Part shown: positions 35,203 through 42,720 of the stretch, piece by piece
How the letters are laid out: the number at the start of each line of letters is the position of its first letter
Numbering within the stretch: the stretch's first letter is position 1
Assembly: GCA_030019255.1 (NCBI GenBank)
Contig: JASEFK010000018.1
Location: 420 to 46,751, forward strand
Source of the DNA: Actinomycetota bacterium
Lineage (GTDB): Bacteria; Actinomycetota; Geothermincolia; Geothermincolales; RBG-13-55-18
Direction of reading: 5' to 3'
DNA length: 46,332 nucleotides
Notes under the pieces: generated by a model
What the model was told of the DNA's origin: nothing
Database searches by the model: none
The model's input: only the letters and a program-made list of their open reading frames with translations
Position numbers and translations under genes: made by a program

Positions 35203-36312
35203 TCAGGAAGCGCCGAAGAAGGACCGTATGGCCGCGATCACCGTTTCCTGCTCCTCACGGGTGAGGTGGGGGTACAAAGGGAGGGAAAGGACGCGGCGGG
35301 AAGCCTCTTCGGCCACCGGGCAGGGTGGGCCGGGATACCCGCGGAAGGGAGGTTGCCGGTGCACGGGAAGGGGATAGTGAATGACCGTCTCCACGCCTTT
35401 CTCGTCCAGGTGCCGGCGGAGGTCGTCCCGCCGGTCGCTGGTCACGACGAAGAGATGATAGACGTGTTCCTCGCCTTCCCGGCACTCCGGCAGGCCCAGG
35501 GGAAGGTCGGCGAAGGCCTTGATGTACCTCCGGGCCATTTCCCGGCGGCGCCGGTTCCATTCCGGTAGGTACTTGAGCTTGATGCGCAGGAAAGTCGCCT
35601 GCAGCTCGTCCAGGCGGCTGTTGGGGCCCACCTTGGCGAGAAGGTCACGTTCCACGCGGCCGTAATCACGGAGGCATCGCAACTCGTGGGCCAGCTCCTC
35701 GTCCGAGGTTACCACCATGCCCCCGTCCCCGTAGGCACCGAGGTTCTTGGTGGGGTAGAAGCTGAAACAGCCCGCCGCTCCGTAGGAACCTGTCATCTTT
35801 CCGTCCAGGGACGCCCCGTGGGACTGGGCACAGTCCTCCACCAGGAGAAGGCTGTGCCGCTCGGCCAACTTCCCCAGGGCGGGCATGTCCGCCGGGCGTC
35901 CGAAAAGGTGCACGGGGAGGATACAGCGTGTGCGGGGGGTGATCCTCTCCTCCGCGCTGGCGGGGTCCAGGGTGAGGGTGCGCGGGTCCACGTCGGCGAA
36001 CACCGGCACGGCGCCGGCGAGGTTCACGGCCACCGCCGTGGGAGGGGCGGTAAAGGCGGGAAGGATGACCTCGTCCCCTTCCCCGATTCCCAGGCCGCGC
36101 AGGGCGAGGAGCAGGGCGTCGGTGCCCGAGGCTACCCCTATGCCGTGCTTTACCCCACAGAAGGCGGCCAGCTCCCTTTCCAGGGATTCCACCTCCGGGC
36201 CCAGGATGTAACGGCCCCGTTTTACAAAGGAGGAGAAGGCGCGACCGAGTTCCTCTTGGAGTTCCCGGTCCTGGCGGGTGAGATCCAGAAAGGGTACCCT
36301 CGGTGCCTTCAA
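35203..36312 (-). CDS. DegT/DnrJ/EryC1-family PLP aminotransferase
   Basis: It is a sugar aminotransferase of 369 aa that probably acts on a nucleotide-linked keto-sugar. PLP features: GVASGTDALLLAL phosphate site (residues 59-71), VEDCAQSHGA with Asp160, and the Schiff-base Lys189 in SFYPTKNLGAYGDGG. The C-terminal HYPLPVH and PLYPHLTREEQ match the family. The best start is TTG 36312, whose TTGA overlaps the stop of the upstream epimerase; no ATG or GTG is available near the homologous start. It belongs to a three-gene minus-strand operon. Confidence 0.92.
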   Translation of the reverse strand: MKAPRVPFLDLTRQDRELQEELGRAFSSFVKRGRYILGPEVESLERELAAFCGVKHGIGVASGTDALLLALRGLGIGEGDEVILPAFTAPPTAVAVNLAGAVPVFADVDPRTLTLDPASAEERITPRTRCILPVHLFGRPADMPALGKLAERHSLLLVEDCAQSHGASLDGKMTGSYGAAGCFSFYPTKNLGAYGDGGMVVTSDEELAHELRCLRDYGRVERDLLAKVGPNSRLDELQATFLRIKLKYLPEWNRRRREMARRYIKAFADLPLGLPECREGEEHVYHLFVVTSDRRDDLRRHLDEKGVETVIHYPLPVHRQPPFRGYPGPPCPVAEEASRRVLSLPLYPHLTREEQETVIAAIRSFFGAS

Positions 36313-37355
36313 GTCGATCTCTTTCGGATCAGGGACGGTTTCACCCTGGAGGGGCGGAAATAGCGTTCGCCGTGCATGCGGTAGAAGGCGATGGTCTCCT
36401 GGAGCCCGGCACGGAAATCCCACTTGGGTTCCCACTCCAGGACGGCCCGCAGCCGCGAGATGTCCAGGACTATATCGCCGGGTTCCACGCAAGCGCGCTC
36501 CGGCGGATAGGGGGCCAGGGACCAGTCGGTTCCCGCCTCCTCGCTCACCGCCTGCGCTGCCTCGGCCACGGTTATGGATTTCCCGGAGGCCAGGTTGAGG
36601 GACATACCCCGGCATTCCGGGTCGGCGGCGGCCAGGAGCAGGGCTTCCACGGCGTCCTCCACGTAGAGAAAGTCCCTGGCCTGGGTCCCATCTCCGAAGA
36701 CGCGTATCTCCTTCCCTTGCAGTCCCAGGCGGATGAACCAGTTCAGGAACCCCTGCCCGTCGTGCATCATCTGGTGGCGGGGCCCGAAGACGTTGGTGAG
36801 GCGCAGGGAGAGGTAGCTTATGCGCCCTTGTTCGTGGAAGATGCGGTGGTATTCCTCCACGGCGGTCTTGTGCACCCCGTTGATGTCCACCGGGCGGAGG
36901 GGATGGTCCTCGTTCACCGGCAGGTAGAGGGGACTGCCGTACTGGCTCCGGGAACCGGTGTATATCACGGGGATCCCTGGATTGAGCTCCGCCAGGGCGC
37001 TCAGGAAGCGCAGCTGGCTCACGCAGTTCCTCTTCAGATCGCGAAGGGGATGGTGCAGGGATCCTACGTGGCTCACGCAGGCGGCGAGGTTGAAGACCAA
37101 ATCCTGCCCCGGGAGATGTTCGGACAACGCGCGGGTGGCGCCGATGTCCGAGACCACCAGGGTGACCTCCTCCAGGACGTCCTCCAGGTTGAAGAGGTTG
37201 GCGCCCTGGTCGGGAAAACAGGCGTCGATCACCGTGACCCGGGAGCCCATGGCGACCAGGCGGCGCACCAGGTTGCTCCCGATGAACCCCAGGCCCCCGG
37301 TGACCAGCACCCGACGACTCCGGTAATATTCCTCCAGCCTCTGCCCGTCCCGCAT
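36309..37355 (-). CDS. NAD-dependent epimerase/dehydratase (extended SDR), Tyr-to-Asn variant
   Basis: It is a nucleotide-sugar modifying extended SDR of 348 aa. The Rossmann NAD motif is VLVTGGLGFIGSNLVRRL (residues 16-33). The C-terminal half is typical (FGPRHQMMHDGQGFLNWF, GDGTQARDFLYVEDAVEALL, LNLASGKSITVAE). The usual YxxxK active site reads NGVHK (Asn159-Lys163), so the catalytic Tyr is replaced by Asn while Lys is kept. ATG 37355 has AAGGGAG 9 bases upstream and starts 1 base after the preceding stop; an ATG at 37403 would overlap the upstream gene by 47 bases. Confidence 0.9.
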   Translation of the reverse strand: MRDGQRLEEYYRSRRVLVTGGLGFIGSNLVRRLVAMGSRVTVIDACFPDQGANLFNLEDVLEEVTLVVSDIGATRALSEHLPGQDLVFNLAACVSHVGSLHHPLRDLKRNCVSQLRFLSALAELNPGIPVIYTGSRSQYGSPLYLPVNEDHPLRPVDINGVHKTAVEEYHRIFHEQGRISYLSLRLTNVFGPRHQMMHDGQGFLNWFIRLGLQGKEIRVFGDGTQARDFLYVEDAVEALLLAAADPECRGMSLNLASGKSITVAEAAQAVSEEAGTDWSLAPYPPERACVEPGDIVLDISRLRAVLEWEPKWDFRAGLQETIAFYRMHGERYFRPSRVKPSLIRKRST

Positions 37356-37356
37356 G

Positions 37357-40300
37357 TCAAATTTCTCCCTTGCGCCATAACCGTATCCATAATGAAACAT
37401 CACCCCTCACCATGGCAAGCAGGTTCCGGAGGCGGAAGAACTGGCTCTTCCCCTCCCGGCGGGGAAGGTGGCGCACGGGCACTTCGGCGAAAACGGCACC
37501 TGCCGCCTGCAGGCCCTTCACCAGCTCTACGCATATGGAGCCTCCCTCCGAGCGCAGGTCGAGGCTCCTGGCCAGGTCACCGCGCATGAGCCGGAAGTCG
37601 CAGTCCACGTCCCGGATGGGAACCAGGAAAAGGCGGCGCACCACCCGGTTGTATATGCCTCCCAGCACCACGCGGTACCAGGGGTCGCTGCGGGATTCCT
37701 TGTACCCGTTGACCACGTCGGCAACCCCGGTCAGGGCGTGGAGCTTGCGCAGTTCCTCCACGTCGTACTGGCCGTCGCTGTCAGTGTAGAAAATCCAATT
37801 TTTGGAAGATATCTTTATCCCGCTGCGCAGGGCCGCCCCGTAGCCGCGGTTGCGGTCGTGCCGGACCACCCTCACCTCGGGGTGGGCGGCGGCCACGGAA
37901 TCGATGACCACACCCGAGGCGTCGGAGCTCCCGTCGTCCACGATGATGACCTCGTAATCGTCCGTCAGCTCCCGCAGCACCCGGAGGGCCTTCTCCACCA
38001 CCTCCCCGATGGTGGCGGAATCGTTGTAGCAGGGGAAGAAGGCGCTTATCCCCCCGGAGTCGGGCGGAGGAAGAGAGGTTTTTTCGCTTTCCTTTGCTCG
38101 TTCTCGGGCCCGCTCCCGGCGCAGGGACAAGACCAGGAGGCCGAGGAAGGCGGCCAGGGAAAGGAGGCTGATCACCCCTCCCGCGAGCAGCCCCGGCGAA
38201 CGGTAGCGGAGGGAGACCCGGTGTTCGCCCGCCGGCAGGTAAAGGGCGGTCAGGAAACCATAGGCGGAGAACAGGGGGCGTTCCTCCCCGTCCAGGAAGG
38301 CTTTCCACCCGGGCAGGTAATCCTGGTTGAGCACAAGCACGGTATCTCCGGTGCCCGAGGTCCGGAGAAGGAGACCGTCGCCGCCCCTTTCCAGCACTTC
38401 CACCCTCGTTTCCCCTTCCGGCCTGGAAATATTTTCTATTCGCCGCCGCGTCGCGGGATCCACCTCGGCGCGCGAGAGTATGACCTCGCCCTCGCGGTAT
38501 CCCTCCCAGAAGGCCAGGTCCACCGCGGCTTTCCAGTCGTCTACCCACCGCACTTCCCAGGCGGTGAAGGCCTGTGGTGCGGGGTCCCCCACCCGGTAAA
38601 CGGCGTACCTCCCGTCGGAATAGACCGGGGCCCAGGGCAGGAGGGGCACCGACCTGCCATCCTCGTCCACCAGGCTGACGGCGGCCAGGCGGGAGCCCCG
38701 CAGCCCCTCGGAGCAGAGGGAGAAGACCGAGAGGCGGTCGGTGTGGCGCAGGCGGAGGGGAATCCTTATCTCCAAGGCCTCCCGCCCGTCGCCGAAACCG
38801 GGAGAGCGGAACCTCACCCTCTGGAAGTTGACCGGTCCCTGGTCGTACATCACGGAAAGGAAATAGTCCTCCTCTCCGGTGTCCTTTTCCAGGACCAGCA
38901 GGGGCAGGTCCTGCAGCCGCCCTCCCCGGCGGGCCTGGAGCTTGAGATGGACGGTTCCCAGGGATTCCGGGTCCAGAATGGGTCCGTCCAGCAGCAGCCG
39001 CAGCTCTCTTCCCTTGACCGAGGGGTCGACGGCGTAATCGACGCTGCCCATCCAGGAGGGGAAGGTAAAAGGAGAACCCAGGTCGTATGCCGTGCCCCGT
39101 ACCCTGACCAGGTTGGAGAGGAGGACCTTCACCCCCGCCAGGGCCAGAGCCCTGTCCCTGGGTTCCACCTGGAGGAGTCCCAGGAAGCGGTCTACCCTGG
39201 CGGGCGGGATGGTGGAGAATCCGAAGGCATCTTCCAACCCGTATGGGAGGAGCTGGTTGGGGGCCAAGGAGAACTCCCCCCGCTTCACCCCCGGCTCACC
39301 CAGAAGGGCCACCCTGCCGCCGGCGCTATCTTCCTCCAGTACGTCCAGCACCGGAGGCCGGTAATCGGCCCGGTTGCGAGGGATGGGCTTGAACACCAGG
39401 CCGGCGACGTAAAAGACGTCCAGGACGGCCAGGATGACCACCAGGGCGGCCACCGTCCTCCTGCCGTTGACCCCCCTCCAGGGATATTTCAACAAGAACA
39501 GAAAGAGGACCAGGAGGCCCACGGGGATCAGAAGCTCCACGTGGGGGGAGGTGAAGTAAGCGGCCAACCCGTCCAGGACCTGCGAAGCGGAGATCTTGAT
39601 GCCGGAGAGGAAAGGGCCGCTCACGGCGGCGGCGAAATCCCGGAAATGGAGCACGTCGGTGCGGTAAAGCAATACGAAAAGCGCGAGAAGGGCCGCGGAA
39701 GCGGTGGCGAAGACGGTCCATCCCCGAAGGATGCCGTGAAGCTGGTCCGGTTCCAGTTCCTCCCCGCGCCAGCGGTCGAAGCCCATGGCCCCCAGGACGA
39801 GGAGGCAGAGGTTGGTGATCAGGAAGAAACGACCGGGACCCTTGAGCACGTGAAAGCCGGGGAGATGACGCAGGACAGGCCACAGCAGCCCCTGGTTCCC
39901 CAGGCTTAAGAGCAGTGCAACCACGCCCGCCCAGAAGAGGAAAGGGGCCGGCCAGCGGCGCGGTTTCCTCAGGGCCGCGGGGGCGAAGAGGAGGGGCAGG
40001 ATTCCCGCGTAAATGTAGGTCTCCTCGAAGGTCCAGGCCCCGAGGTACCCGCTCTGGGCCAGGCCCCTGCCGAAGGCGCGGGGGAAGAAGACGCCCGCGA
40101 GCTGGAGGACGGGCAGGTTACCCACGTTGGACAGGGAGGAGGAGAGGCCGCCCGCCCGGTAGGAACTGTTCACCAGGTGGTAACTGGGAAGGTTCTGGAT
40201 CATCCCCAGGCCGAGGCCCAGGGCGACGGACCCTCCCCAGCGGGCCAGGGCCGCCATCCTGGAACTTCGCTGTGAAGCCTCCGGGTGCAGGAAGACGTAG

Positions 40301-40923
40301 AAGAAGGACAGGAGCACCTCGATGAGGGGTATCATCAGGAACCCGGAGAGAAACTGGAGGCCGAGAACGCCCCCGGCCAGGAGGTGGAACGAAAACCGAT
40401 TTTCCTGAAGGGCCCTTTCCAGGAGGTACAGGAAAAGGGGAATCCAGGCCAGGGTGGCCACCACGTTGGGATGCACCAGGTGGGCGAGGAAGAAGCCCGA
40501 CAGCATGAAGGGGGCGGCGGCAAAGCAGGATGCGGAACGGCCCAGGCGGAGGAGCCGGCAGTAGAGGTAGAGAAAGCATCCGCCCAGAAGGTAGTGGAGG
40601 ACCAGGAAGTAATTGAACCCCGCAGTGGAAGGAAGGAGCATGAAAGGCGGGGTCAAGGGGTAGAATAAGGCCATCTCGCTGTCGGCGAAGAGCGGGAACC
40701 CGCAGTATATGCCGGAGCACCAGAAGGAGAAGTCCCCGCTCCGCAAAAGTCCCGAGAGGTATTTCCAGTTGGGCAGGTAATAGTTCCTGATGTCCGAGAT
40801 CCAGGGCACCTTCCGGAGAAGGAGAAGTTGGCGGAAAAATAGAAAAACGGTACCCGCGAGGAGGAGAAGGGGCCAGATTCTCCTCCCTTCCTTACCCCCG
40901 ATCACCCTTGTCCCGTTCTCCAT
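37357..40923 (-). CDS. Large membrane protein: YfhO-like GT-C domain fused to a GT2 glycosyltransferase
   Basis: This 1188-aa protein starts with many hydrophobic segments (first at IWPLLLLAGTVFLFFRQLLL) and SDIRNYYLPNWKYLSG, the loop of YfhO/GT-C-like membrane proteins. A large extracytoplasmic part follows and ends with NQDYLPGWKAFLDGEERPLF and AGEHRVSLRYRSPG, the YfhO C-terminal signature, then a last TM. From about residue 955 a GT2 domain follows: ISAFFPCYNDSATIGE, VDDGSSD, YTDSDGQYD and a polyprenyl-type DCDFRLMRGD. It probably transfers sugars from lipid carrier donors outside the cell and makes the donor with its GT2 part. ATG 40923 is the most plausible start, but its SD is tight. 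Confidence 0.85.
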   Translation of the reverse strand: MENGTRVIGGKEGRRIWPLLLLAGTVFLFFRQLLLLRKVPWISDIRNYYLPNWKYLSGLLRSGDFSFWCSGIYCGFPLFADSEMALFYPLTPPFMLLPSTAGFNYFLVLHYLLGGCFLYLYCRLLRLGRSASCFAAAPFMLSGFFLAHLVHPNVVATLAWIPLFLYLLERALQENRFSFHLLAGGVLGLQFLSGFLMIPLIEVLLSFFYVFLHPEASQRSSRMAALARWGGSVALGLGLGMIQNLPSYHLVNSSYRAGGLSSSLSNVGNLPVLQLAGVFFPRAFGRGLAQSGYLGAWTFEETYIYAGILPLLFAPAALRKPRRWPAPFLFWAGVVALLLSLGNQGLLWPVLRHLPGFHVLKGPGRFFLITNLCLLVLGAMGFDRWRGEELEPDQLHGILRGWTVFATASAALLALFVLLYRTDVLHFRDFAAAVSGPFLSGIKISASQVLDGLAAYFTSPHVELLIPVGLLVLFLFLLKYPWRGVNGRRTVAALVVILAVLDVFYVAGLVFKPIPRNRADYRPPVLDVLEEDSAGGRVALLGEPGVKRGEFSLAPNQLLPYGLEDAFGFSTIPPARVDRFLGLLQVEPRDRALALAGVKVLLSNLVRVRGTAYDLGSPFTFPSWMGSVDYAVDPSVKGRELRLLLDGPILDPESLGTVHLKLQARRGGRLQDLPLLVLEKDTGEEDYFLSVMYDQGPVNFQRVRFRSPGFGDGREALEIRIPLRLRHTDRLSVFSLCSEGLRGSRLAAVSLVDEDGRSVPLLPWAPVYSDGRYAVYRVGDPAPQAFTAWEVRWVDDWKAAVDLAFWEGYREGEVILSRAEVDPATRRRIENISRPEGETRVEVLERGGDGLLLRTSGTGDTVLVLNQDYLPGWKAFLDGEERPLFSAYGFLTALYLPAGEHRVSLRYRSPGLLAGGVISLLSLAAFLGLLVLSLRRERARERAKESEKTSLPPPDSGGISAFFPCYNDSATIGEVVEKALRVLRELTDDYEVIIVDDGSSDASGVVIDSVAAAHPEVRVVRHDRNRGYGAALRSGIKISSKNWIFYTDSDGQYDVEELRKLHALTGVADVVNGYKESRSDPWYRVVLGGIYNRVVRRLFLVPIRDVDCDFRLMRGDLARSLDLRSEGGSICVELVKGLQAAGAVFAEVPVRHLPRREGKSQFFRLRNLLAMVRGDVSLWIRLWRKGEI

Positions 40924-41470
40924 CTCCCGATCCGCATATGCCCCTCCCCTTCTTCGGGGTGTTGATGGGTCACCTGATCCTTGAACCTCCGTAGATGCCC
41001 GCGATCTCACCTTGCCTCCCGAGCGCGGTCCTTGCAAGGAAGTAAGTGCTCCTCCCTTCCTCGGGGTGCAGGCATCTCCTCCCGGCAGGTCCCGACGGTG
41101 CCTGCGGCTTTACCTGTCTCCGAGGAGCGGTTCGAGCAATAAGATATACCTCGCCTGCCTCCAGCACAACAAGCTGCGCCCCCTTCCTCCCGTTGACCTT
41201 GTTTTGGCACGAGGAAAGGCTGGTCTTCAAGCATTTTCAACCCTGAAAGCGACCACTGGGCCCGTCCAGCGCGCCCACATCCATGGCCTTTTTTATAAGA
41301 GATGGTTAGCGATATGCCTGGAGAGGAAACCTGCGGCGCTTGCCGGGAAACTTCCTTCCGCGGGTCGCCTGGGGGGAAGGGTGGGGTTTCTTGGAGGTGA
41401 CAGCTGGACGAGAGGCCTACGGATGGAGGCGGGACCCGCGCCCGCGTTATATCCGCGTTGAGGGCGCACA
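40924..41470. other. Long intergenic region between divergent yfhO-like gene and fmdB
   Basis: About 550 bases without a recognised gene before the fmdB promoter. The part 40990-41168 contains two diverged copies of an approximately 75-base unit (listed). A minus-strand frame (41230-40970, TTG start) reads through both copies and repeats a peptide motif, but it has no clear RBS. The segment 41280-41300 is AT-rich. Confidence 0.6.
40990..41168 (-). repeat. Two degenerate repeat units, 102-103 bases apart
   Basis: Copy 1 is about 40990-41067 and copy 2 about 41093-41168, with about two-thirds identity by eye and small indels. Read on the minus strand in one frame both encode similar peptides: YFLARTALGRQGE in one and YLIARTAPRRQVK in the other, 34 residues apart. 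This suggests either a decayed coding repeat or a dispersed repeat family. Confidence 0.5.
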
Positions 41471-41499
41471 TTGTCCCCCGGCACGGAGGGTAATAGAAT
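41471..41499 (+). promoter_or_regulatory. Promoter for fmdB-type gene
   Basis: TTGTCC (41471-41476), 17 bases, TAGAAT (41494-41499): -35 matches 4 of 6 and -10 matches 5 of 6. The predicted transcript would begin near 41506, leaving a leader of about 18 bases that holds the AAAGGAAGG ribosome-binding site. Confidence 0.65.
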
Positions 41500-41523
41500 T
41501 ATTTCGAAAGGAAGGTGATGTTT

Positions 41524-41760
41524 ATGCCCTTCTACGAATACAAGTGCGGAGATTGCGGTGAGACCTTCGAATATTTCGCCCGCAGCATGTCGGACGCGGC
41601 GGAGTGCTGTTCCCGCTGCGGGAGCCGGGAGATAAAGAAGCTCTTCTCCTCCTTCGGGTTCAAGAGCGGGTCCGCTTCCTCGGGGGATTTCCGCTCCTCG
41701 GCCTCCTCTTCCAGCTGTTCCTCCTGCACCGCCACCAGCTGCTCCTCCTGCAAGCCCTGA
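41524..41760 (+). CDS. FmdB-family zinc-ribbon protein
   Basis: It is a small putative regulatory protein of 78 aa. MPFYEYKCGDCGETFEYF and CSRCGSREIKKLFSSF give the two Cys-x2-Cys pairs of the FmdB zinc ribbon. The C-terminal 27 residues are Ser/Cys-rich (SSCSSCTATSCSSCKP), a low-complexity tail seen in many family members. ATG 41524 is 8 bases after AAAGGAAGG; ATG 41518 is only 2 bases away and less likely. Function unproven in this organism. Confidence 0.9.
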   Translation: MPFYEYKCGDCGETFEYFARSMSDAAECCSRCGSREIKKLFSSFGFKSGSASSGDFRSSASSSSCSSCTATSCSSCKP

Positions 41761-42063
41761 AGGAACGCCATCCGGCGCCGCTTCATCACCTGGGGACAGG
41801 CAGGCAAGAAAGGCCGCGGCATAAGGGGCGGGGAGGGCGGGGACTGAAAACCTGGATGCAAGGATACCTCACGCCTTTCCTTCCGTCGCTTACACTGGCC
41901 CCAATACCTTCCCCACCATGCACGTCGCGCCCATCCCCGGGGTTGTAAAAGCGGGTCGCCGGTTATTGAATATATTTAACCCCGAAGGGCGGAGTCGGAT
42001 TCCGCCCGCCGGGAGGGATGGTTTAGGCCGGAGGTCCCTTTAGCGGAGGGTTGGGAGGTGGAT
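41761..42063 (+). other. Intergenic region with candidate promoter and hairpin upstream of the UDG gene
   Basis: This 303-base gap holds no gene. A candidate promoter is TTGTAA (41943-41948), 17 bases, TTGAAT (41966-41971). Downstream, GGGCGGA (41987-41993) pairs with TCCGCCC (42001-42007) around 7 bases, which would place a stable stem in the leader of the following gene. Confidence 0.5.
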
Positions 42064-42720
42064 ATGGGGGACTGGAGAGAAGCGACCACCCTGGAGGAGC
42101 TCTACGAGGCCATCAAGGACTGCATGGCCTGCTCCCTCGGAATAACCCGTACCAACCTGGTCCTGGGGAGCGGCAATCCGGATGCAGAGATCATGTTCGT
42201 GGGGGAGGCCCCCGGTTTCCACGAGGACCGCCAGGGGATACCCTTCGTGGGCCCGGCCGGCCAGTTCCTGGACCAGCTGCTGCGGTCCATCGGGCTGCAG
42301 CGTTCCCAGGTCTACATCGCCAATACCCTGAAATGCCGCCCCCCGGAAAACCGGGACCCGCTGCCCGAGGAACTGTCCGCCTGCACCCCCTACCTCTACA
42401 AGCAGATAGAGATAATCAGGCCGCGCATCATCTGCACGCTGGGCAACCATGCCACCAAGATACTTCTGCGCACCGGGACGGGTATATCCCAGCTCCATGG
42501 CAAGCTCATCCGCAAGGGGGGTCTGGCCTACGTTCCCCTTTTCCATCCCGCGGCCGCCTTGCACAAGCCTCCCCTGAAGGCCGTTCTGGTGGAGGATTTC
42601 CAGAGGCTGAAGGAGCACCTGGACGCGGAAAGGGTGCGCTGGGAAGCCGGGGAGGGGCCTTCGGAGGAGGCGGTCCCGGCTGCAGCGGACGAACAGCCGG
42701 AGCAGATGGGCCTCTTCTGA
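42064..42720 (+). CDS. Family 4 uracil-DNA glycosylase (Fe-S)
   Basis: It removes uracil from DNA. It has 218 aa. Four Cys (Cys20, Cys23, Cys91, Cys107) match the 4Fe-4S ligand spacing of thermophilic family 4 UDGs. Motif GEAPGFHED (47-55) and the FHPAA motif (His161) are the active-site motifs. The last five residues are QMGLF, resembling a sliding-clamp-binding pentapeptide after an acidic/Pro linker. ATG 42064 is 5 bases after GGGAGG; GTG 42058 is possible. Confidence 0.93.

Follow-up and report, generated by a model that had tools for sequence, protein, structure and literature searches.

The subject of this report is a gene on the minus strand of a 46,332-nucleotide stretch from an Actinomycetota bacterium (assembly GCA_030019255.1, contig JASEFK010000018.1, positions 420 to 46,751 of the forward strand; hereafter the window), together with the two genes that follow it. 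The open reading frame (ORF) at 37357–41037 comprises 1226 open codons counted from a TTG; started at the ATG at 40923, in agreement with the alignment of homologues, it encodes a protein of 1188 amino acids (aa), to which residue numbers refer throughout, except that Pfam positions follow the 1226-residue numbering. The original prediction had taken it for a YfhO-like membrane protein fused to a family 2 glycosyltransferase (GT2), and the domain search bears this out, PMT_2, YfhO and Glycos_transf_2 all exceeding their Pfam cut-offs within the one frame: PMT_2 at 144–257 lies at threshold (26.3 bits, cut-off 26.1), YfhO (PF09586) at 896–957 reaches 41 bits (cut-off 28.5), passing the curated cut-off even though the match spans positions 774–835 only of the 835-position profile, and Glycos_transf_2 at 998–1100 reaches 81.8 bits (cut-off 23.3). 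The protein, with its putative C-type glycosyltransferase (GT-C) half in front, its transmembrane (TM) helices and its first extracytoplasmic loop (EL1), is laid out as follows.

37357..40923, minus strand: fused GT-C (YfhO/AftD-like) and GT2 (DPMS/ArnC-like) protein, 1188 aa (open frame, Pfam, 13-row alignment, model, fold matches)
39394..40875, minus strand: GT-C membrane part, predicted TM1–TM13, residues 17–510 (model helices, positive-inside test, AftD/STT3 matches)
40630..40821, minus strand: EL1, residues 35–98, with invariant D44 and D81-S-E83 (invariant columns)
38191..39393, minus strand: extracytoplasmic β-rich domain, residues 511–911 (secondary structure of the model)
38089..38190, minus strand: TM14, residues 912–945, predicted to bring the chain back to the cytosol (model helix 912–945)
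38053..38088, minus strand: linker between TM14 and GT2, residues 946–957, the site of the frame break in genus g3 (alignment, g3 loci)
37360..38052, minus strand: GT2 domain, residues 958–1188, with invariant DDGSxD, DxDGQY and DCDFRL (Pfam, NCBIfam, fold, alignment)

Occurrence and origin of the fused frame

Among 59 genomes, namely the organism's own and 58 relatives, 13 (own included) contain the complete fused protein in a single stop-free frame, and a 14th (G004), in a 587-aa frame located at the end of a contig, includes sequence from either side of the junction. Across the 12 other rows of the 13-row alignment, identity with the protein of the window ranges from 37 to 82%; those relatives that have a name comprise two bins of Candidatus Solincola besides further Actinomycetota bins. 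In a sample of 396 genomes of the phylum, for each of which no more than two candidates were scored, the full-length matches were the same 13. The fusion is a real protein and no sequencing error. A frameshift or assembly join uniting two genes, which the original prediction had named as the danger to itself, is dismissed because the frame is joined identically, and unbroken, in thirteen genomes; nothing was found in favor of such an artifact, to which we assign practically no probability.

The word "fusion" needs qualification for three relatives, G005 and G009 carrying YfhO and GT2 in different frames and G017 carrying the GT2 without a YfhO part. The family of 15 genomes thus divides into 11 with the fusion (G004 counted), the two split ones (G005 and G009), and two (G003 and G014) without a match at E ≤ 1e-60. 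G005 and G009 represent the sister genus g3, in both of which the frame breaks at the linker, and YfhO ends after TM14 and its basic tail. In G009, YfhO, GT2, SDR (short-chain dehydrogenase/reductase) and aminotransferase are four genes in unchanged order, the GT2 frame (278 aa) beginning inside the final YfhO codons and YfhO being visible only from residue ~608, at the contig end. In G005, the start of the GT2 frame overlaps the YfhO stop, yet internal stops are present and YfhO is broken elsewhere too; this copy (locus L047), interrupted at several places, is either a decayed gene or poorly assembled. It is possible that the g3 split reflects an indel error in two incomplete bins, but an error at the same position would then be needed twice. 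The GT2 of G017 has a linker-like N-terminus, with no YfhO in front.

A quickly built tree comprises 98 GT2 domains, 14 fused and 84 separate; duplicates (L054–L059) and GT2 matches that score below 200 bits or cover at most 190 positions were left out. Every fused row falls into one 17-row set together with the separate G005, G009 and G017; the support of this set by the Shimodaira–Hasegawa-like approximate likelihood-ratio test (SH-aLRT) is 83, short of the level of the starred branches. This tree requires no fewer than three changes, such as a single fusion followed by two separations, and the starred branches force at least two.

Predicted folds, topology and conserved residues

All 21 NCBIfam models listed for the fused protein score far under their cut-offs: ArnC is on top for the GT2 part (68.3 of 529 bits), with PpgS, AglJ and PgfS (44.1 of 500 bits) lower down, and the GT-C half is matched by PgfM2 (53 of 1500 bits) and PgfM1 (24.3 of 1400 bits). 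The closest solved chains by sequence, that is, ArnC, dolichyl-phosphate mannose (DPM) synthase and sll0501 (GtrB), all align to the GT2 part. An AlphaFold2 model built with the 13 alignment rows has a predicted local distance difference test score (pLDDT) of 80.3 and a predicted template-modeling score (pTM) of 0.73, the start of the linker (residues 945–950) falling below a pLDDT of 50. Comparison of this model by VIA-align 2 superimposes residues 954–1183 on the DPM synthase DPMS (5mlz; Z 25.2, 2.2 Å, 223 aligned) and residues 955–1181 on ArnC (9bhe; Z 23.4, 2.5 Å, 220 aligned), with GtrB also matching the GT2 part (Z 21.1). In the model, therefore, the C-terminal part is a dolichyl-/undecaprenyl-phosphate sugar synthase fold, and by fold and motifs it is predicted to be a polyprenyl-phosphate sugar synthase. 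The N-terminal part is modeled as a GT-C fold of the AftD/STT3 class, matched over most of the membrane part by AftD (6w98; residues 14–934, Z 23.7, 4.4 Å, 574 aligned) and STT3 (8agc; residues 10–780, Z 22.5, 4.3 Å, 444 aligned).

The predicted topology, with TM borders that are our own reading of the model helices, consists of 13 TM helices, an outer domain of ~400 residues (511–911), and TM14 (912–945); a purely hydropathic scan yields 18 segments, part of which are not TM in the model. With the N-terminus inside, the density of lysine plus arginine (K+R) at the membrane edges, averaged over the alignment for the whole protein, is 0.199 inside and 0.079 outside. Behind the hydrophobic core of TM14 stands the basic stretch LRRERARER, with ~5 K/R per 15 residues. 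These features support a cytosolic location of the GT2 head, as the original prediction had it, the topology being a computed one; the converse placement, with GT2 outside, finds no support in the charge distribution. No TM hairpin follows the GT2 domain in the fused protein.

The 13 rows share 174 invariant columns, of which 68 lie in GT2, 16 each in EL1 and the fourth extracytoplasmic loop (EL4), 7 in the fifth (EL5) and 24 in the outer domain, whereas all internal loops between helices together hold a single invariant residue. D44 of EL1 is Asp also in all those more distant YfhO rows in which the position is covered. The exact DSE of EL1 (D81-S-E83) is found in 13/13 fused rows and is not retained beyond the fused lineage, counted together with the relatives in which the gene is split; one outside row (in L109) has DGE instead. 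The GT2 head retains DDGSxD, DxDGQY and DCDFRL. If such conserved residues have the roles known from GT-A and GT-C enzymes in general, both heads look catalytically alive.

The operon and the separate-gene relatives

The fusion is the first of three closely packed genes, its stop codon (37359–37357) being followed after one base by the SDR ATG at 37355, and the probable TTG start of the aminotransferase (36312) overlapping the SDR stop.

36309..37355, minus strand: extended SDR (epimerase/dehydratase fold) with Asn at the tyrosine of YxxxK (Pfam, model, comparison with the Protein Data Bank, PDB)
35203..36312, minus strand: DegT/DnrJ/EryC1/StrS aminotransferase, probably C3-type (Pfam, NCBIfam, solved relatives, lysine for pyridoxal 5′-phosphate, PLP)

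Both genes stand behind the fusion in 12 of the 14 fused genomes (in G001 the contig ends behind the fusion), and the same housekeeping genes flank the operon throughout the family. Against solved chains, the aminotransferase scores best with 13 sequences at 265–380 bits, headed by 7b0d (annotated as "glutamine--scyllo-inositol transaminase"), 2oga, QdtB and WbpE, and lower with NtdA (213 bits), perosamine synthetase (193 bits) and ArnB (182 bits). Of the amino or deoxy sugar originally predicted, the "amino" is supported. Presuming that 2oga is DesV, and that the top group (DesV, QdtB and WbpE included) and NtdA are C3 enzymes, we lean toward a C3-type aminotransferase that would place the amino nitrogen of the sugar at C3, the carbon being the less sure part. 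The PLP lysine is present in 65/65 aminotransferase rows (60 after removal of duplicate genomes) and is compatible with both C3 and C4 enzymes.

The SDR model (pLDDT 89.8) has the full nucleotide-sugar epimerase/dehydratase fold, closest to Mth375 (6pnl; Z 42.9, 1.8 Å, 328 aligned). Its catalytic YxxxK deviates from that of the five closest PDB relatives, all of which have the motif: Asn replaces Tyr in 55/55 SDRs of the cassette, and Lys is kept in 50/55. Among SDR rows above 340 bits, Asn occupies the Tyr place in 65/65 (61 after removal of duplicate genomes), a count biased toward Asn since the profile that defines these rows was built from Asn-bearing members. Rows between 150 and 340 bits have 5 Tyr and 2 Asn (n = 7), and low-scoring SDRs of the same loci (<150 bits), taken as a control, have Tyr in 10/12, with one His and one Met. 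A subfamily of SDRs with DxNGxxK for YxxxK and an invariant Asn occurs in many phyla, frequently in the vicinity of this GT2 and of an aminotransferase of the DegT family.

Relatives of the GT2 were collected by a scan of named genomes, in which the best 80 of 574 confirmed loci comprise 5 fused ones (all Actinomycetota), one split within the fused lineage (L059), and 74 without a YfhO fusion, in keeping with the earlier expectation that the two parts are usually separate. Of these 74 unfused GT2 genes, 41 have an SDR no more than 3.5 kb away on their own strand, 37 an aminotransferase, and 26 both; the neighborhood of the fusion often recurs where this GT2 is separate, and the GT2–SDR–aminotransferase cassette has representatives in Acidobacteriota and Chloroflexota as well as in candidate phyla and a single archaeal bin. 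A TM-rich gene (≥350 aa) lies within 150 bp of the GT2 at 19/74 loci; with equal neighbor pools, the corresponding count is 27 or 29 among 330 soluble-looking control ORFs (Fisher p = 1.4e-4 or 2.1e-4), the control being a crude one in which other open frames from the same loci stand for genes. Pfam finds PMT_2 (5), DUF2079 (1) or YfhO (1) in 7 of 20 TM-rich cassette neighbors. In loci picked by hand, YfhO lies within 600 bp of the GT2 (L069, L072, L076 and L101, with L069 and L101 slightly under the cut-off), a PMT_2 protein 435 bp from it (L106), or a PTPS_related protein next to it with YfhO ~3 kb further on (L109). The small membrane gene adjoining the GT2 belongs to GtrA in L061, and to the EamA/TMEM234 type in L086, L106 and L120. 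The long frames in front of the GT2 in L060 (673 aa) and L115 (546 aa), without Pfam match or TM segment, have the look of read-through and were rejected as fusions.

On a rival reading, each head serves a pathway of its own, their fusion ensures nothing more than co-expression, and the product of the GT2 also feeds other GT-C enzymes. Other partners do exist, contig C9 of the organism's own genome encoding an additional YfhO (784-aa frame) and, near it, a GT2 of a different type, and separations inside the fused lineage seem to be tolerated; against this, a single fusion has been retained across deep divergence and the same GT2 lineage adjoins GT-C genes at some other loci, and we regard separate pathways as very unlikely.

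Of the 74 unfused relatives, 71 are predicted to be free of TM segments from the GT2 domain onward to the C-terminus, and three to have a single one. A fused anchor would make sense in this lineage, because its GT2s mostly lack a TM hairpin, and the GT2 may accordingly be the sole glycosyltransferase, with the YfhO/AftD-like half an anchor, a scaffold or a flippase for the lipid-linked sugar. GtrA (PF04138), too, was not found in any of the 15 family genomes, own included, and Mycobacterium tuberculosis Ppm1, in which a DPM synthase is joined to a domain anchored in the membrane, offers a precedent (PMC3485146). The invariant residues of EL1 and EL4, D44 and DSE among them, nevertheless exceed the needs of an anchor, their invariance holds in sequences down to 40–42% identical in the membrane part, and the outer domain of ~400 residues is retained. 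We therefore consider it unlikely that the N-terminal half serves only in this way.

Several further proteins were met in these scans. Among the matches listed in a Chloroflexota scan (400 genomes, 205 matched, at most two candidates scored per genome), no row spans both halves of the fusion. The Chloroflexota YfhO/AftD-like proteins L192:4865-7843, L194:4919-7930 and L193:4240-8085 (993, 1004 and 1282 aa) cover most of the GT-C half, with no GT2, SDR or aminotransferase in the stretch fetched; G464, G670 and G741 of the same phylum have a GT2 match on the strand of the YfhO match and ~1–5 kb away from it. The 958-aa protein L181:1275-4148 (minus strand, Chloroflexota) consists of four TM segments, a GT2 and then ten hydrophobic segments, Pfam recognizing only the GT2, and is possibly a flippase–GT2–GT-C triple fusion. 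L185:1611-4847 (minus strand, Actinomycetota, 1079 aa) has a GT2 at 276–483 with eight TM segments behind it and no other Pfam match; L181 and L185 together suggest that joinings of GT2 with membrane domains recur. On contig C9 of the own genome (L050), the second YfhO (766–784 aa) has the separate other-type GT2 nearby on the opposite strand. Within the window, 41524–41760 (plus strand) encodes a 78-aa Cys-rich protein beginning MPFYEYKCGDCGETF, too short to pass the length limits used in calling ORFs, which looks like an FmdB-type zinc ribbon; its DNA is 71–80% identical over 188–251 bp in 10/10 related loci compared. An Rfam scan of the whole window gave zero matches at gathering scores, and a promoter and terminator scan of 40800–42100 nothing useful for the fusion operon.

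Proposed function and comparison with known systems

The fused protein is probably a two-headed transmembrane glycosylation enzyme, in which a polyprenyl-phosphate amino sugar would be made inside and its sugar transferred outside. We infer that the SDR and the aminotransferase produce an amino sugar activated by a nucleoside diphosphate and probably aminated at C3, which the C-terminal GT2 head at the cytosolic face would transfer to polyprenyl phosphate; after the lipid-linked sugar is flipped by another protein, the N-terminal GT-C head would take the sugar outside and pass it to a cell-surface acceptor held by the outer domain. The fusion would keep the making and using of the carrier lipid at one place and in a one-to-one ratio. 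The joining of cytosolic donor synthesis with extracytoplasmic transfer, as first predicted, is thereby supported by fold, by the placement of invariant residues, and by the charge topology.

A number of observations weigh against this proposal. On the side of the protein, parts of EL1 and EL4 (69–78, 251–268 and 286–300) have a pLDDT below 50; beyond the C-terminal piece of PF09586, the Pfam support of the GT-C half lies at threshold; and, since the long helix of the model takes up the basic stretch, the flank right after TM14 alone has a K+R density of 0.103, less than the 0.123 of the flanks of the outer domain. On the side of the pathway, the top NCBIfam models for the aminotransferase are C4-type, none over its cut-off (PseC 214.3 of 423.5 bits, ArnB 211.7 of 631, and dTDP-4-amino-4,6-dideoxygalactose transaminase 211.3 of 375), G015 has the fusion and the aminotransferase with no SDR after the fusion, and the negative GtrA result noted above takes away one component of the best-known model. 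Among the unfused GT2 loci, 22/74 have neither an SDR nor an aminotransferase nearby, and 49/74 lack a TM-rich gene at distances of up to 600 bp from the cassette; the other TM-rich neighbors are without Pfam match in 11/20, one being a TPR protein and one an AI-2E transporter. The C4 result of NCBIfam and the weak charge flank after TM14 lower our confidence in the proposal.

For the flip, a Wzx- or EamA-type protein is possible: Polysacc_synt (PF01943, Wzx-type) matches at two places of the own genome, and weak EamA-type matches occur in 14/15 family genomes (best E 7e-7). The GtrA search gave matches in 7/14 known genomes used as a control. Genomes with an unfused GT2 were searched for 46 of the 74, their completeness being unstated, and 19 of them contain GtrA, as do 0/4 fused ones; its absence is not peculiar to the fusion, because the other 27 of the 46 likewise show none, and was dropped as a hallmark. 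A Wzx-type alternative has been proposed for other systems (PMC8035078). A bolder version, which seems to us quite improbable, is a one-protein machine, in which the GT2 product would pass through or along its own GT-C half, or that of an oligomer, without a dedicated flippase, the cargo being an unusual amino sugar made via a new, Asn-for-Tyr type of SDR.

The proposed two-headed enzyme is worth comparing with known systems of similar parts. The Arn pathway (ArnA/B/C/E/F/T) makes and uses 4-amino-arabinose, and resembles the present one in its nucleotide-sugar SDR, DegT aminotransferase, ArnC-fold GT2 and GT-C transferase, as well as in the EamA/TMEM234-type small membrane gene adjoining three of the unfused cassettes; it differs in that the ArnB and ArnC scores given in this report are far under the equivalog cut-offs, that the solved relatives of the aminotransferase suggest C3, and that the three-gene operon is without formyltransferase or deformylase. 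The Pgf system of Streptococcus consists of three proteins, the models of which hit the GT2 head (PgfS) and the GT-C half (PgfM2 and PgfM1), but all three scores are far under cut-off. Mycobacterial AftD, an arabinofuranosyltransferase, has the closest solved fold to the GT-C half, outer domain included, at 14% identity; the part of its chain that aligns contains no GT2 domain.

Another close system is CsbB–GtcA–YfhO of Bacillus subtilis, Staphylococcus aureus and Listeria, acting on lipoteichoic or wall teichoic acid, which likewise pairs a GT-A-fold polyprenyl-phosphate sugar synthase with a YfhO GT-C transferase; csbB and yfhO of B. subtilis are two genes of one operon (PMC5836110). Here, in contrast, the separate proteins are replaced by one chain with the GT-C first, no TM hairpin follows the GT2, the family genomes show no GtrA, and the operon includes SDR and aminotransferase. 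GT-C proteins of the CsbB/GtcA/YfhO type are described as having 8–13 TM helices and an acidic DxD-like motif in an outer loop (PMC5836110); the fused protein has the modeled GT-C fold and D81-S-E83, but 14 model-read TM helices, one above that range. Ppm1 of M. tuberculosis is similar as a polyprenyl-phosphate mannose synthase fused behind a membrane domain, its halves being separate operon genes in relatives (PMC3485146), but comparable proteins of the present phylum (L187 and L188) carry an apolipoprotein N-acyltransferase (Lnt) half, not a GT-C. "Component 27", a YfhO-like glycosyltransferase family from AlphaFold clustering, places YfhO-annotated proteins near STT3/PglB, and the accessible part of its published account describes no fusion (PMC10584680). 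Within the accessible text of the open-licence literature, we found no description of a fusion of YfhO or GT-C with GT2, and the print record elsewhere may differ. The fusion is surprising in its tidiness rather than in its parts, and is probably best read as a one-chain form of CsbB/YfhO or ArnC/ArnT.

YfhO enzymes have been assigned as outer transferases by genetics, a 2018 paper calling biochemical proof lacking (PMC5836110). A natural fusion with a donor-making enzyme, long kept, is independent evidence that both act in sequence. It also provides a single protein on which reconstitution of donor synthesis, of flipping and of transfer could be attempted, the separate-gene version of the sister genus serving for comparison, and it marks a GT2–SDR–aminotransferase cassette that is found across several phyla.

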